From the NCBI GenBank assembly GCA_017528425.1, contig JAFXOV010000044.1, positions 62,001 through 126,000 of the forward strand: a stretch of 64,000 nt of DNA, read 5' to 3'. Below the pieces are notes generated by a model that was given only the letters and a program-made list of their open reading frames with translations, searched no databases and had not been told where the DNA came from. Shown in pieces: positions 37,989 through 46,373 of the stretch (position 1 is its first letter; each line of letters begins with the position of its first letter). The position numbers and the translations under genes are program-made. The DNA comes from Elusimicrobiota bacterium. GTDB taxonomy: Bacteria > Elusimicrobiota > Endomicrobiia > Endomicrobiales > Endomicrobiaceae.

Positions 37989-39113
37989 TTAGAGTGGTAC
38001 CAAGTGGGCATCCCAACCGCCGAGCTCGGCTTCGTTGTACTTATAAATCGGAGTTTCTTTATTTAACGGTTCGGTAATTATTTTTCTTGTTGCCTCTTCG
38101 GCATAATAGGCAGCTGCAGCTATACCGACCGCAGCACAAACTTGTCCTACAGCCGGAATATAAGCTACCGCTTGTATTATGTTATAAAAGACAAAAAGTT
38201 GTTGTGCTACCATAGGTGACAAAAGTGCTGCCGTAATATAAGATAAACCTGTACTTGTGTCTTCTTTTTCGGGAAACATAGGACCTTTAACATTATATAA
38301 TCCCGCAGCACCCAAACTATACAATACAGGCATATCAACATCAAAGACATTTTTGAATAACGGGTATCCGTCATTTTTTGAAGGAGTTTTTATTCCTATA
38401 CCTACCAACTTTTTATCATAAAAGTCCGTATCTTGAACATACCAAGACACATTATCTTTCATATATTGTCTGGGTATAACTATATGATAATGTTTTGCTT
38501 GAACATCGAGACAAAAATTCATTGTTTTATAATAAGTTATCCCTTTAGTATTTCTTTTTATACCTAACCAAACTTTCGGATCGGTTATATTAAAATTAAA
38601 CAAATTTGTTCCTTTGGCATATCTTGAAGGTATAACAAAAACTTTATAATCTTTATCGGGAATATTTTTCATTAACAGCGCCGATTGAACCATATAGTTT
38701 GTAAGTAAAAGATCTTGAAACTGTTGTATTGAATTTACAAGCTTTTTCATTTTCAATACACCGCTGTACCTTTCGTTTACGGCAACACCTGCTTTGGGAC
38801 AATAATAGTCGCAAAACGGACCGGGTATCATCGAACCGCCAACCTTATCGGTAGAAAAAGACGGAAACATTGCTATCATGGGGTACGATGCCGTAGATAA
38901 AACTGTTGCCATTAAACTGTTTGTTGCACCCAACAAATTTAATGTTCTTGCCTGCAAATTTGCAACGGATATTACCGTGTTGTCAACATAGTTTTGTAAT
39001 ATCATTTTATCTCTTAAAATTTTGGCAATATTTACCATCATTGCCCAACTGAATATAAGGATTAACGACATTACAAGCATATAAGGTAATACCTGACCTT
39101 TTCTATTGTTCAT
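37989..39113 (-). CDS. TadG/TadE-like pseudopilin or pilus-assembly protein
   Basis: Taking the ATG at 39113 (which overlaps the preceding stop by 11 bases) gives 374 residues beginning MNNRKGQVLPYMLVMSLILI, a short basic leader followed by a hydrophobic helix, as in TadE/TadG proteins. The remainder is a long exported domain with a second hydrophobic, Ala-rich stretch (VAYIPAVGQVCAAVGIAAAAYYA) near the C-terminus. Such proteins take part in type IVc (Tad/Flp) pilus assembly. No ATPase or prepilin peptidase is in the window. The frame stays open upstream to 39164. Confidence 0.6.
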   Translation of the reverse strand: MNNRKGQVLPYMLVMSLILIFSWAMMVNIAKILRDKMILQNYVDNTVISVANLQARTLNLLGATNSLMATVLSTASYPMIAMFPSFSTDKVGGSMIPGPFCDYYCPKAGVAVNERYSGVLKMKKLVNSIQQFQDLLLTNYMVQSALLMKNIPDKDYKVFVIPSRYAKGTNLFNFNITDPKVWLGIKRNTKGITYYKTMNFCLDVQAKHYHIVIPRQYMKDNVSWYVQDTDFYDKKLVGIGIKTPSKNDGYPLFKNVFDVDMPVLYSLGAAGLYNVKGPMFPEKEDTSTGLSYITAALLSPMVAQQLFVFYNIIQAVAYIPAVGQVCAAVGIAAAAYYAEEATRKIITEPLNKETPIYKYNEAELGGWDAHLVPL

Positions 39114-39597
39114 ATTCAGGAAACTCTTTTGCATCGGGATATGCCTTATTGTAAAATTCTTCATCGGGAGATTTTACCATTCTTGCCCTTGCAGACTGCT
39201 CTCTGTAAAACAAAGAATTGAAAAATTGCCCGAACATTATTCTTGTATTGTAACCGACTTTTACATTATGTTTATTTATTTTTTTGTTGCTGTGATCTAA
39301 AATTTTGTTGCCTAAAATATCTTCGTCCCAATGTGTGGTTTTATAATAAAATACACTCTTGGAACTTAACATATATGCCGTAAGAAGCTTTGATACTGTT
39401 TCTTTTGCGGTATCGGCAATTTCTTTATTTTTTGTTACAACTATTTTTCTTGTAGCCGAAAAAGCGCTGTAATTCAAAAACATATCGTCCGCAACAATAA
39501 TACAAACTTGTATTGCAGCAAACATTAAAACCGTTATTATACAGGCAATTATAAATCCTTCCAAAAAAGATTGTCCTTTATTGTTAAAACAAAACAT
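39103..39597 (-). CDS. TadE-like membrane protein
   Basis: The ATG at 39597 has GGGAG six bases upstream and gives 164 residues starting MFCFNNKGQSFLEGFIIACI. The NNKGQSxLE segment followed by a hydrophobic helix is a TadE-type N-terminus, with the conserved Glu at about 13. The mature part is exported and rich in Lys and Thr. It overlaps both neighbours: 14 bases with the pilin-like gene upstream and 11 with the TadG-like gene. Confidence 0.6.
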   Translation of the reverse strand: MFCFNNKGQSFLEGFIIACIITVLMFAAIQVCIIVADDMFLNYSAFSATRKIVVTKNKEIADTAKETVSKLLTAYMLSSKSVFYYKTTHWDEDILGNKILDHSNKKINKHNVKVGYNTRIMFGQFFNSLFYREQSARARMVKSPDEEFYNKAYPDAKEFPEYEQ

Positions 39598-39763
39598 TTG
39601 ATACTCCCGCAATAAAGGAAATAAAATCGAATTTATGTTTCCATGCAATAACAAAAAGTTTTACCATACCGTAACTTGCGGCAAACATAACAAGAGTAAA
39701 CAAAACATACTCTACCGCAGCTTGTCCCGATTTATTGTTTATGATATTTAGAATTGTTTTCAT
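39584..39763 (-). CDS. 59-residue Flp/TadE-like pilin candidate
   Basis: This short gene is easy to miss. It encodes 59 residues beginning MKTILNIINNKSGQAAVEYV, then a hydrophobic helix (LFTLVMFAASYGMVKLFVIA). The GQAAVEY motif is that of Flp and TadE pilins, where Glu-Tyr follows the prepilin cleavage point by four to six residues. The ATG overlaps the secretin-like gene stop (ATGA) and its own stop lies inside the next gene, so it is tightly coupled to both. It could be the major or a minor pilin; length favours Flp. Confidence 0.62.
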   Translation of the reverse strand: MKTILNIINNKSGQAAVEYVLFTLVMFAASYGMVKLFVIAWKHKFDFISFIAGVSNVLF

Positions 39764-40488
39764 TGTTCTATAATTTTCGGAGTAACAAAGATTAAAACAT
39801 TCGTTTTGTTATCTTTTACTTTTGTATTTTTGAACAATGTTCCGAGTAAAGGAATATCGGAAAGTATAGGAATACCCGAAGATGTTTTATCTTTATAATT
39901 TTCTATAAGACCCGCAATAACTATGGTTTGCTGATTTTTTAATATAACACTTGATCTTGCCTGCCTTTTGGCAATGTTCGGAAACCCCTGAACGGCATTT
40001 GCCCAATCGAGTCTTGAAAGTTCAGTTTCTATAACTAAATCTATTCTGTCCTCTTCCAAAATTTTCGGTAAAATTTCCATAATAATTCCGTACTCTTTCC
40101 ATTCTACATTACCGCCTGAAACACCCGATACTGCTATAGGAAATTCCCCTCCGACCAAAAATCTTGCTTTTGTTCCGGACTTTGTTACAAGTTTAGGATT
40201 GGATAATACTTGTGCCGAACCGCTTTCCTGTAAAAGTTTAAGTTTGGCACTTAACGGAGTGTATCTTACCCAATCGTTAAATTCCACAAGTGACGGATAA
40301 ACGGTGTTACCTTCACCGTTTGTAACAAAAAGTTCACCGGTAGAAATTTCATCCACCCACTTTATTCCGTACTCTTTGGCTTTGTTATTATTTATTTCGG
40401 TTATTTCTATGGATATTTCAACTAATTGTTCCGCAAATATAGCAGTAGAAATAAAAAGTAAAGTTATTAAGATAAAAAACTTCTTCAT
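39760..40488 (-). CDS. Short secretin-domain protein (RcpA/CpaC or GspD-like)
   Basis: The 242 residues have a signal peptide (1-19, IFAEQ) and the secretin homology region only: VEISIEITEINNNKAKEYGI, SAQVLSNPKLVTKSGTKARF, GEFPIAV, and the end motif GIPILSDIPLLGTLFKNTK. Full secretins are about 450-700 residues with N-terminal periplasmic domains, which are missing here. It may be a reduced outer-membrane channel for the pilin-like proteins encoded downstream. It begins directly after the gcvT stop. Confidence 0.82.
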   Translation of the reverse strand: MKKFFILITLLFISTAIFAEQLVEISIEITEINNNKAKEYGIKWVDEISTGELFVTNGEGNTVYPSLVEFNDWVRYTPLSAKLKLLQESGSAQVLSNPKLVTKSGTKARFLVGGEFPIAVSGVSGGNVEWKEYGIIMEILPKILEEDRIDLVIETELSRLDWANAVQGFPNIAKRQARSSVILKNQQTIVIAGLIENYKDKTSSGIPILSDIPLLGTLFKNTKVKDNKTNVLIFVTPKIIEQ

Positions 40489-42868: not shown

Positions 42869-42905
42869 GATTAAATTCCAATTAATAAAATTAACAAGTA
42901 AATAT

Positions 42906-44055
42906 TTTACCAAATTATGAGATTTTTAGATATAGAACTGATTTCGGGTATATCAATATTTTTTTGGAAGATTCAACAATTATCCGAATTTATAATCTCA
43001 CTATACTAGATTGAAATTGGTACAATATCACTAAATATAGTGGCAATTTCAAATATACTACCATATAGCTTTTTAATTTCTAAAAACTATATTTCAGGTA
43101 TTTTTATGTCACGTTTGTAAGTCAATTTATGAATAAAACTTTTTTCACAGGCTTTCTTAAAATCCGCATTAGATATTTTTTTCACCTTTTCAGCCTTACT
43201 TAAAATAATATGTATATTTCCATCGTTTTCATTCAGAGAGTAACCATAATATAATTTTTTGAAATCCCTATCATTTTCAAGCAAAGCAATAAACAAATAA
43301 TGATGTACAAAGTAATTCAAAGAAAAATTTTCATTTTTCCAGTATTCTGTTATTGCTGCCTCCCATTTTGAAATGAGTTGATTGTACTGTTTTGAATAAA
43401 TAAAGCAATTATTTATAAAAGTCTTCGCAAATTTTCCAACACTCCTATAAATAAAAAAATCTGAATTATAAATATATCTTGGCAATTGAGAAGTTAGTAA
43501 GCAAGTTGCATCCAGCCAAAAACCACCATATTGTTTAAGTAAATAAACTCTTATAATGTCTGAAAAATGTGCATTGCCAATTATGTTTTTTCTATGTTTC
43601 TCCATTATAAACTCTGGCAATGAAAGATAATTATTTAAGTTATCGTATGTAATAACCTTAACTTCAAAATCTTTCGGCTTATTTTTTCTAAAGGATTGAA
43701 AACATTTTTTTACCAGTTCCGGAGCATTATCTTCACCCTGAAGCCAACATGTCCAAATATAGTTTCCACATTTGCAATCTTTTTTTTCTAATTCAATACC
43801 TTTTGCATACCGACTTAAATATTTTACACAACGTTCCCTGTTAACTGGTGAAATTTTATCGCGAAAAGAATCCCTTGCGGACTTGTTCCAAAACACCAAC
43901 GAAGATAATAAATTAGCACATAGTTTCGTTACATTTAATGCAATTTTATTCATTTTTTTAAAAAATACTTTTTTAAGTGATTAGAAAAACTATTTTATAA
44001 CCTGTCTTTATCGTAATGCTGGTTATTTTACTAAATTATGAGATATTTTGATATA
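42906..44055. repeat. 30-base direct repeats flanking the glycosyltransferase gene
   Basis: TTTTACCAAATTATGAGATT... at 42906-42935 and its counterpart at 44026-44055 agree at 27 of 30 bases. They bracket the whole 43087-43953 gene. Each copy also lies upstream of a minus-strand gene (lpdA and the glycosyltransferase), so a shared promoter element is the alternative to an insertion scar. Confidence 0.65.
43087..43953 (-). CDS. Capsular-polysaccharide-type glycosyltransferase (Caps_synth/GT32-like)
   Basis: The 288 residues show NYIWTCWLQGEDNAPELVKKC, a middle GNAHFSDIIRVYLLKQYGGFWLDATCLL (the GGxWLD sugar-nucleotide/metal motif) and a His-rich end. This is the pattern of the capsular synthesis proteins related to GT32 enzymes. 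It would add a sugar to a surface glycan. There is no clear Shine-Dalgarno before the ATG. The gene is AT-rich even for this region and is bracketed by 30-base direct repeats, suggesting recent acquisition. It follows the ATP-grasp gene of the peptide operon. Confidence 0.8.
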   Translation of the reverse strand: MNKIALNVTKLCANLLSSLVFWNKSARDSFRDKISPVNRERCVKYLSRYAKGIELEKKDCKCGNYIWTCWLQGEDNAPELVKKCFQSFRKNKPKDFEVKVITYDNLNNYLSLPEFIMEKHRKNIIGNAHFSDIIRVYLLKQYGGFWLDATCLLTSQLPRYIYNSDFFIYRSVGKFAKTFINNCFIYSKQYNQLISKWEAAITEYWKNENFSLNYFVHHYLFIALLENDRDFKKLYYGYSLNENDGNIHIILSKAEKVKKISNADFKKACEKSFIHKLTYKRDIKIPEI

Positions 44056-44062
44056 ATTTTTT

Positions 44063-45004
44063 TTAATCGTTCAAAAACTTTTCCGGTAACTTTAACATTT
44101 CTCCGAATTTATAGTCCCATTCAATAGGATCAAACGGAGATGTACCGTTACCCGGAGTAAAAGTTAATTCCCCTACATAAATGTTATTATTACCGTCTTC
44201 ATATAAATCAACTCTGACTAAAGGAAAAGGTTTTGCCAATTTTTCCGCGATACTAATCATTTCATCGTAATTATTAATTTCCAACTTTACTTTACTGTTG
44301 TTTAACACATTATCATTTATAAAAGGCTGTAATTTTAAATTTCTGTCATAAAAATTAAAAAATTTTGCGCCTTCATGTATTCCGGTTACCATCAAATATT
44401 TATAGTCCCCGTTAAAACAAAGAAATTTATAGTTCTGTGCAATTAATCCGTCTTTTCCTAAAAGCAATTTCTCGCAAATAATTCTCGGTTTTATATCTTT
44501 GTATTGCCACTCAAAATTCAAATAATAAAAATTTTTTTCCGGTCTGGTCCAAAAGTTAAGCTTTTTTATTGCACGGGCAACATCAAACGTTGATTTATCC
44601 CGGCATAAAATATTTTGTCTGCAACCCCAATTTGTTTTTACTATAAATTGATTCGGAAACTTATCAAACTCTATTTCTTCGGGGGTATTATAAAAACCTA
44701 AACAAGGGACTAAATATTTTTCACCTGCGACATCTTTTATATAATTTCTTACCTCTATTTTATCCGAACATTTTGTCATTAACGGATTATGATAGTAGAA
44801 TTTTAGCCATTGAATTTTTTCATTGAAAGTTTTGGGATTATCCAAATTCAACTTATAATTCAACTGTTGTTTGAATTGAACTTCTAAAACATACCGAATT
44901 TCTTCTTTGGTTATTTTTTGTGATTGTCCGGAACGAATTCTTTTATATTTAAAATTTAGTATATGTTTTAAATTGTTCCATTTCTTTTTAATTTTATCTA
45001 TCAT
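44063..45004 (-). CDS. TupA-like ATP-grasp protein
   Basis: The start at 45004 overlaps the radical SAM stop as ATGA and gives 313 residues (MIDKIKKKWNNLKHI). The sequence fits TupA-like ATP-grasp proteins: KTFNEKIQWLKFYYHNPLMTKCSDK, then DKIEVRNYI, FIVKTNWGCRQN, ICEKLL, and DLYEDGNNNIYVGELTFTPGNG with metal-binding acidic and Asn residues near the end. ATP-grasp enzymes join a carboxylate to an amine through an acyl-phosphate. The family takes its name from teichuronopeptide synthesis and is common in glycan loci. The coupling to the radical SAM gene suggests a joint task. Confidence 0.8.
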   Translation of the reverse strand: MIDKIKKKWNNLKHILNFKYKRIRSGQSQKITKEEIRYVLEVQFKQQLNYKLNLDNPKTFNEKIQWLKFYYHNPLMTKCSDKIEVRNYIKDVAGEKYLVPCLGFYNTPEEIEFDKFPNQFIVKTNWGCRQNILCRDKSTFDVARAIKKLNFWTRPEKNFYYLNFEWQYKDIKPRIICEKLLLGKDGLIAQNYKFLCFNGDYKYLMVTGIHEGAKFFNFYDRNLKLQPFINDNVLNNSKVKLEINNYDEMISIAEKLAKPFPLVRVDLYEDGNNNIYVGELTFTPGNGTSPFDPIEWDYKFGEMLKLPEKFLND

Positions 45005-46029
45005 ACTTCTTTCCAACATTGCGGATCTGCTGCATAAAAATTGTGCGTTTTGCCGTAAGCCACGGCAGGACATCCTCTGCAAAAGCTTAACAACTCGCAT
45101 TTGGAACACTTTTCGAATTTATCGTAATCTCTGTATCGTTCCATTTCGTTGAACCAAACATCCGATATTTTGTTTTCTAAAGCATTTCCTACTTTACCGT
45201 CAAATCTTCTGCAAGCGAGCAAATCTCCGTTTGAACAAATAGTCATGTGGCTATTTCCGCAATTGCAACCGTCATATATGATTCCTTTTTCCGCCCGTTC
45301 GGGAATTTTAAAAATTCCTTTTTCGTAAAGATACAATGTCCACAAATGATCTTTATATCCGAAATAAGTTTTACAGCCTTTACTTTTATATTGTTGAAAT
45401 TTGTTATAACATTTATCCAACAACTCTCTGTATTCCAACGGTTTTATATTTGTATCTTTTTGCAAACTTGTAGGACAATATCTTGCAAAACCGAAGATAT
45501 TTACTTCATGTTCAACAACAACATCTATAAGGTCAGGAATTTCATTTATATTCTTGTCCGAAACGGTTGTCATTATAACAGAATCAATTCCGGCATCATT
45601 TATACATTTTATTTTTTCCAGAGTAATATCAAAAGAGCCCGGTTTTCTGAACCAATCGTGTGTTTGTTTCATGCCGTCTATCGACATTTGATAACTATCA
45701 CAGCCGTAACTTTTTAATTTTTTGCAAAGTTCGGTATCTATATGAAAAGGATTACCTAAAATTGAAAACTCACAATTGTGATTTTTCATTATTTCAAGTA
45801 AACTCCAAAAATCTTTGTTAAGAAGAGGATCTCCGCCGGTAATTACAAAGTTAGGTTTTCTGGCGACCTTTGAACAAAATTCAATACAGTTATCAAAAAC
45901 TTTTTTCATTTGTTCCAAAGACATAGAAACTATAGGTTTGGTTACGTTTTCCGAAAAGATATAACAATGCTTACATCTTTGATCACATTCATCCGTTATA
46001 TGCCATTGAAAAGAAAAATATTGTTTCAT
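45001..46029 (-). CDS. Radical SAM/SPASM peptide maturase
   Basis: The 342 residues open with HITDECDQRCKHCYIF; C15, C19 and C22 form the CxxxCxxC site for the SAM-binding [4Fe-4S] cluster, followed by VITGGDPLL and YQMSIDG. The C-terminal SPASM region has many Cys (DGCNCGNSHMTICSNGD, LACRRFDG, CSKCELLSFCRGC, and a final DPQC) for auxiliary clusters. SPASM enzymes make thioether or C-C bonds in ribosomal peptides. I recall similar maturases for very Cys-rich peptides (the so-called ACGX system), but membership was not tested. The gene follows the candidate precursor by 57 bases. Confidence 0.9.
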   Translation of the reverse strand: MKQYFSFQWHITDECDQRCKHCYIFSENVTKPIVSMSLEQMKKVFDNCIEFCSKVARKPNFVITGGDPLLNKDFWSLLEIMKNHNCEFSILGNPFHIDTELCKKLKSYGCDSYQMSIDGMKQTHDWFRKPGSFDITLEKIKCINDAGIDSVIMTTVSDKNINEIPDLIDVVVEHEVNIFGFARYCPTSLQKDTNIKPLEYRELLDKCYNKFQQYKSKGCKTYFGYKDHLWTLYLYEKGIFKIPERAEKGIIYDGCNCGNSHMTICSNGDLLACRRFDGKVGNALENKISDVWFNEMERYRDYDKFEKCSKCELLSFCRGCPAVAYGKTHNFYAADPQCWKEV

Positions 46030-46041
46030 ATATTCCTACAT

Positions 46042-46073
46042 AAAAAAAAGACCCCTTTATAAAAAAGAGGTCT
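46042..46073 (-). terminator. Attenuator-like hairpin between precursor and radical SAM gene
   Basis: On the minus strand AGACCTCTTT and AAAGGGGTCT pair (one G-U; arms about 46064-46073 and 46049-46058) and are followed by a run of U (46042-46048). The hairpin lies 13 bases before the radical SAM start. It would let most transcripts stop after the peptide gene, giving more precursor than enzyme. Confidence 0.8.
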
Positions 46074-46086
46074 CTTATATTTAAAA

Positions 46087-46293
46087 TTATTTTGACGGCA
46101 TACAAGATGCTGTTTTTGTTACCATACCACAACCCACAGGTCTCTTTACCGCTTGGCAAGACACACCGCGACCTGTTGACTTTGCTATAACATTGCAACC
46201 GGTAGCCTCATGTATATTAACAGCAATATTACAACCCGTTGACTTATTATTTTGTATTTCTGCATTCCAAGCATATAAATTCTTTAAAGACAT
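46087..46293 (-). CDS. Cys-rich candidate RiPP precursor
   Basis: The start at 46293 is set by AGGAGG seven bases upstream; the longer frame to 46350 runs into the promoter. The 68-residue peptide begins MSLKNLYAWNAEIQNNKS, a likely leader, and then has five Cys at 21, 33, 46, 55 and 64, each preceded by Gly or Ser in a loose repeat (TGCNI, TGCNV, VSCQA, VGCGM, ASCMP). Other small residues (Thr, Ala, Val) fill the rest; no signal peptide and no Gly-Gly site is seen. Its place before a SPASM enzyme, with its own promoter and attenuator, marks it as the substrate. Confidence 0.78.
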   Translation of the reverse strand: MSLKNLYAWNAEIQNNKSTGCNIAVNIHEATGCNVIAKSTGRGVSCQAVKRPVGCGMVTKTASCMPSK

Positions 46294-46338
46294 TTTATAC
46301 CTCCTAACTAATTTCTGTATTAATAGGTACTTTATTCT

Positions 46339-46367
46339 ATTATATACCACTTTTTGCTTTTTTGCAA
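46339..46367 (-). promoter_or_regulatory. Promoter of the peptide operon
   Basis: Minus strand TTGCAA (46362-46367), 17-base spacer and TATAAT (46339-46344) lie about 45 bases before the precursor ATG and directly after the proS stop. Confidence 0.7.
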
Positions 46368-46373
46368 CAACTT

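Follow-up and report, generated by a model that had tools for sequence, protein, structure and literature searches.

The minus strand of a 64-kb stretch of DNA from a rumen-type Elusimicrobiota bacterium, referred to here as the window, holds a compact group of genes for a short Cys-rich peptide, a radical SAM/SPASM enzyme, and an ATP-grasp ligase. The locus raises the question of whether such a group defines a new class of RiPP or belongs to a system that has already been named. A sequence-only reading had favored a new precursor class, with thioether bridges of the sactipeptide or ranthipeptide kind and an ATP-grasp ligase coupled to the maturase.

SPASM maturases recognize the leader of their substrate and modify its core by means of a SAM-derived radical. 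In RefSeq, the ACGX family comprises a maturase gene, acgM, and a partner gene for an ACGX-repeat peptide, acgA, as on a Roseburia plasmid. A literature search found no described ACGX product, and we know of none.

In this study, we examine the maturase, its candidate precursors, and their genomic surroundings in the source genome, in related species, and in acgM loci of other bacteria and archaea. The ACGX family is known; what stands out is a system split over two loci, a diverged second core, and a coupling to a TupA-like gene that is specific to the genus. The data favor a split and relocated ACGX module in which one maturase probably serves two precursors, one in cis and one in trans.

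Results

Layout of the cassette

Every feature that the sequence-only reading had listed (AGGAGG, a 68-residue peptide with five Cys, a hairpin, a radical SAM/SPASM gene, and an ATP-grasp gene coupled through ATGA) was located in its place on the minus strand of the window. The whole cassette (42869-46373) lies between proS and lpdA. A pattern scan finds TTGCAA-17-TATAAT (46339-46367) just upstream of the precursor gene, as had been read, but as a promoter this is suggestive only, because promoter-like sites are common in this AT-rich region and occur near the level expected by chance (24, versus 19.7 +/- 4.5 in shuffles). An AGGAGG ribosome-binding site, read from the sequence (46300-46305), stands 6 nt before the ATG at 46293 of the 68-codon precursor gene, which we call acgA2 (46087-46293). 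A hairpin with a T-run (46046-46076) separates acgA2 from acgM (45001-46029). The region that bears it (46086-46030) folds better than 200 of 200 shuffles (z = -3.6), and Candidatus Ruminimicrobiellum bubulum, a second species with the cassette, has a hairpin at the same position (z = -5.6). This hairpin is probably an attenuator or partial terminator, and it would hold the precursor in excess. The start codon of the TupA-like ATP-grasp gene (44063-45004; 313 aa), at 45004, overlaps the acgM stop codon by 4 nt as ATGA, and in R. bubulum the two genes abut. Elsewhere in the window, downstream of gcvT (37989-40488), TadE/TadG-like pseudopilin and secretin-like genes mark what appears to be a Tad-type pilus region.

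AcgM is a member of the ACGX maturase family

AcgM scores 575.4 bits against the NCBIfam model TIGR04340 (rSAM_ACGX; cut-off 400) and spans model positions 1-341 of 341; it is a full member of this named RiPP maturase family. Its translation contains the CxxxCxxC motif (C15, C19, and C22) and a seven-Cys SPASM pattern, CX12GX4C followed by CX2CX5CX2C and a final Cys, and the Pfam SPASM match is above cut-off. The earlier recognition of a radical SAM RiPP-type operon is thereby upheld. Two outcomes had been named as counting against it, an enzyme of a non-peptide family and a small peptide not conserved beside homologues of the enzyme; instead, the profile search placed AcgM in a RiPP family and the neighborhood survey found the peptide conserved. 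The non-peptide families AhbD and NirJ were rejected at 110-131 bits, far under their cut-offs.

The second-best NCBIfam family is SbtM, a thio(seleno)oxazole RiPP maturase (TIGR04082; 167 bits, cut-off 350). AcgM shares with PapB, CteB, SkfB, SuiB, and StsB the architecture of a radical SAM, SPASM-type peptide enzyme, and the solved structure nearest to it is SkfB, followed by 5wgg and 5v1q (taken here as CteB and SuiB), so that all three would be peptide maturases. Unlike the ranthipeptide and sactipeptide maturases, however, AcgM remains far under the cut-offs of 300-625 bits set for these families (StsB, 68.5 of 625; PapB, 67.4 of 340; SkfB, 58.1 of 300). It therefore falls outside the characterized thioether-forming families, and the thioether class assigned earlier is not borne out by these scores.

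A search of the source genome found one copy of acgM, and the gene is present in 3 of 341 Elusimicrobiota genomes. It is well constrained between the window and R. bubulum (dN/dS 0.09). No relative was found on viral contigs; four plasmid records appeared in the acgM search, and the one examined carries an ordinary ACGX locus.

A divergent precursor beside acgM and a canonical-looking one elsewhere

The acgA2 product, MSLKNLYAWNAEIQNNKSTGCNIAVNIHEATGCNVIAKSTGRGVSCQAVKRPVGCGMVTKTASCMPSK, begins with the ACGX leader (MSLKNLYAWN), and its gene lies directly upstream of acgM. It matches TIGR04341 with 22.2 bits (E 1.6e-4), below the curated cut-off of 28; all five precursors of the genus are under that cut-off, the canonical-looking ones at 20-26 bits. 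A Pfam match to ComC_SSD was below cut-off and was set aside. Because a homologue occupies the same position in R. bubulum, and given the TIGR04341 E value, acgA2 is more than a chance open reading frame. Like the ACGX system (TIGR04341/TIGR04340), the locus combines a maturase above cut-off with a leader of the form M(A/S)L(S/K)NLxxW, a precursor directly upstream, and a core that is short, Cys-rich, and of the repeat type. Unlike that system, the core consists of GCN, GCN, SCQ, GCG, and SCM placed over 9-13 residues rather than ACG repeats, with Cys at 21, 33, 46, 55, and 64 (spacing 12, 13, 9, and 9). The Cys-Gly pair has been lost at four of the five Cys, leaving a core that lacks the repeated Cys-Gly (ACG) of the family. 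Gly follows Cys at 3 of 9 positions in the R. bubulum cassette peptide, at 8 of 8 in both orphan precursors described below, and at 163 of 172 in a sample of 27 precursors from outside the genus. By sequence, then, acgA2 appears to be a divergent member of TIGR04341 and a paralogue of the canonical-looking precursor in the same genome, its spread-out Cys pattern being best read as a locally diverged core. A Methanobrevibacter sp. (L007:9306-9569) encodes, near a canonical acgA-acgM pair, a second and diverged ACGX-leader peptide with SCC repeats and Cys-Gly at 1 of 9 Cys, an apparent archaeal parallel to this divergence.

When the source genome (G000) was queried with the acgA2 peptide, one further place was found, on contig C48 (1209-1385), which encodes MALKNLYGWNGGISTISSPCGCGSKKNATPCGCGSKKNATPCGCGSKKNASPCGCGSK. 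This orphan acgA has the same leader as acgA2 and a regular Cys-Gly core with PCGCGSKK repeats. On its 3' side lie genes that, by sequence reading, encode a MarR regulator, a PNPOx/4Fe-4S (PNPOx-ferredoxin) protein, and an MDR-type reductase; no acgM was found alongside at this locus. One caution is that C48 measures 5.7 kb and that its assembly carries 4.69% contamination, although R. bubulum (G312) has the same acgM-less junction on a 158-kb contig. In the genus, acgM and acgA-type precursors co-occur, both being found in exactly the same three genomes. The dN/dS of the orphan precursor between the window species and R. bubulum is 0.04. Mainly because the orphan is so strongly constrained with no maturase gene beside it, we consider it probable that the one acgM of the genome acts on this precursor in trans.

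The maturase gene has probably moved between two loci

In the congener G314, acgM is located between acgA and marR. The orphan contig of the source genome is colinear with G314 in two blocks, and the acgM segment is missing from it exactly, from the acgA hairpin to the start of marR. At the other site, only 3 bp separate proS from lpdA in the congeners G314, G315, and G317, whereas the window species and R. bubulum carry the acgA2-acgM-TupA cassette between these two genes. The acgM tree joins the window and R. bubulum sequences (100/99) and then G314 (95/96), which fits a single history within the genus that included a move, although acgM may instead have been lost from the one locus and gained at the other independently. 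The ancestral locus of the genus was likely acgA-acgM-marR, followed by the genes for the PNPOx-ferredoxin and MDR reductase proteins, as in G314. From there acgM would have moved to the cassette between proS and lpdA that also holds acgA2 and the TupA-like gene, splitting the ACGX module. Synonymous divergence between the window and R. bubulum is approximately 0.7 in the cassette and 0.31-0.42 in the flanking genes, and this excess makes recombination in the cassette likely.

Neighbors of acgM within and outside the genus

The survey beyond the genus took in approximately 68 acgM loci, which come from methanogens and Clostridia-type genomes. Recurrent neighbors of acgM in these loci are an HxlR regulator, a nitroreductase or MDR reductase, and a PNPOx-ferredoxin, to which many Clostridia add a macrodomain protein and a Sir2-type protein. 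Exporters or peptidases were not recurrent (L066, L005, L006, L147, and other Clostridia). The redox-type, macrodomain, and Sir2-type neighbors, together with the lack of a recurrent exporter or peptidase, suggest an intracellular role in stress or redox metabolism rather than a secreted antibiotic. The window locus differs in having a TupA-like gene beside acgM and no HxlR/MarR regulator, nitroreductase or MDR reductase, or PNPOx-ferredoxin gene.

The cassette TupA-like protein is assigned to PF14305 (149.5 bits, cut-off 25, E 1.5e-43). Its residues K123, E178, D266, and E279 are invariant among eight members from the genus and, from reading the sequence, are candidate ATP-grasp residues; a profile search found no related solved structure. 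The gene is kept beside acgM in R. bubulum (71%; dN/dS 0.26). The coupling to an ATP-grasp gene, which the sequence-only reading had made part of the new class, is thus real in these two species, but none of the approximately 68 other acgM loci has a TupA gene beside acgM. A TupA search of 103 stretches from outside the genus, many of which span only about 1.5 kb per side, gave no significant match. The coupling is a feature of two species and not a property of the family. Other loci of the genus, without acgM, carry TupA paralogues that share 53-60% identity with the cassette copy, which was probably drawn from that pool. The source genome carries three further TupA-like ATP-grasp genes, with unrelated genes between them, on contig C4 (39215-46040).

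A Caps_synth glycosyltransferase gene (43087-43953; PF05704, E 6e-62) lies 3' of the TupA-like gene in the window and was rejected as a core part of the cassette, because R. bubulum lacks it and direct repeats flank it. Each of these repeats (44024-44055 and, before lpdA, 42903-42934) is a copy of the stretch located 3' of TupA in R. bubulum, and a vestigial 3' end of a TupA gene is preserved just before lpdA (42957-43000; E 3e-28 in a blastn comparison with the 3' end of the R. bubulum TupA gene and its flank). The repeats and the remnant indicate that Caps_synth was probably added by duplication or recombination at TupA, outside the conserved unit, and the interval 42903-44055 appears to record an exchange in which TupA copies recombined.

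Discussion

The results point to an ACGX module whose maturase gene has been separated from its canonical-looking precursor and now resides next to a diverged one. AcgM would bind the leader common to both precursors, M[SA]LKNLYxWN, cleave SAM, abstract hydrogens near Cys, and install an oxidative Cys-centered modification, either a thioether or a thiooxazole as made by SbtM.

Whether the TupA-like enzyme takes part is a separate matter, since acgM and TupA could be chance neighbors at the proS-lpdA integration spot, with no joint function, and still belong to a relocated module. We regard this as nearly as likely as not. The genus has several copies of TupA, Caps_synth is a later arrival at the TupA repeats, and the cassette is more divergent at synonymous sites than its flanks, all of which are in keeping with chance; the tight coupling of the two genes, kept in two species, speaks against it. 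In Campylobacter jejuni, the C-terminal TupA-like domain of Cj1438 catalyzes amide bond formation at the C6 carboxylate of GlcA (PMC11800379). The cassette protein is of the same domain type but stands alone and is coupled to acgM, and its substrate is conjectural. By analogy, it most likely would form an amide bond at a carboxylate of a surface glycan and be co-transcribed with the other cassette genes. That it acts on the cassette peptide is possible, the only point in its favor being the tight gene coupling in two species. The fullest version, in which AcgM acts on both precursors, on one of them in trans, and TupA then links Lys amines of the cassette peptide to the carboxylate of a surface glycan, strikes us as highly improbable.

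A further alternative concerns chemistry only and is likewise compatible with the relocated module: the modification may be a thiooxazole-like or other single-residue Cys oxidation (-4 H) of the kind carried out by SbtM. Substrates of SbtM lose four hydrogens, and a thiooxazole is formed (PMC11002830). The SbtM score of AcgM is well over those of PapB (67), StsB (68), and SkfB (58), and a thioether is therefore not accepted as the default. On the other hand, 167 bits is far under the SbtM cut-off, the non-peptide family AhbD reaches 131, the window precursor has no Sec, and general similarity does not fix the chemistry. We hold SbtM-like oxidation as a tentative candidate, and both it and the thioether (-2 H) stand.

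Another alternative is that acgA2 is a decaying paralogue that is no longer a substrate, with AcgM retained to modify the canonical precursor in trans. The window copy lacks Cys found in its R. bubulum homologue (TGRGVSCQ versus TGCGCSSCQ, for example), and core length differs; modification of acgA2 has perhaps been lost or altered, because all but one of its Cys have lost the C-G pair typical of the family. Nevertheless, acgA2 retains an open frame, leader, ribosome-binding site, and hairpin, and its dN/dS of approximately 0.25, a rough value on 48 aligned codons with many alignment gaps, also argues against decay, which we judge unlikely. Still less likely is the original proposal of a new, thioether-bridged class with the ATP-grasp as dedicated tailoring ligase: the core is clearly unlike ACGX repeats, the two enzyme genes are coupled through ATGA, and TupA adjoins acgM in a second species, but AcgM is above the cut-off of the very family from which it had been set apart, its peptide has the leader of the canonical precursors, and TupA and acgM each occur without the other.

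A split and relocated module means that, in the source bacterium, acgM has been uncoupled from its usual redox-type neighborhood, with an orphan precursor still maintained under constraint at another locus. Annotation by score cut-off overlooks such precursors, as it does all five in the genus. The arrangement as a whole, in which acgM also stands next to another precursor whose core differs, provides a natural test of the roles of leader and core in ACGX modification.
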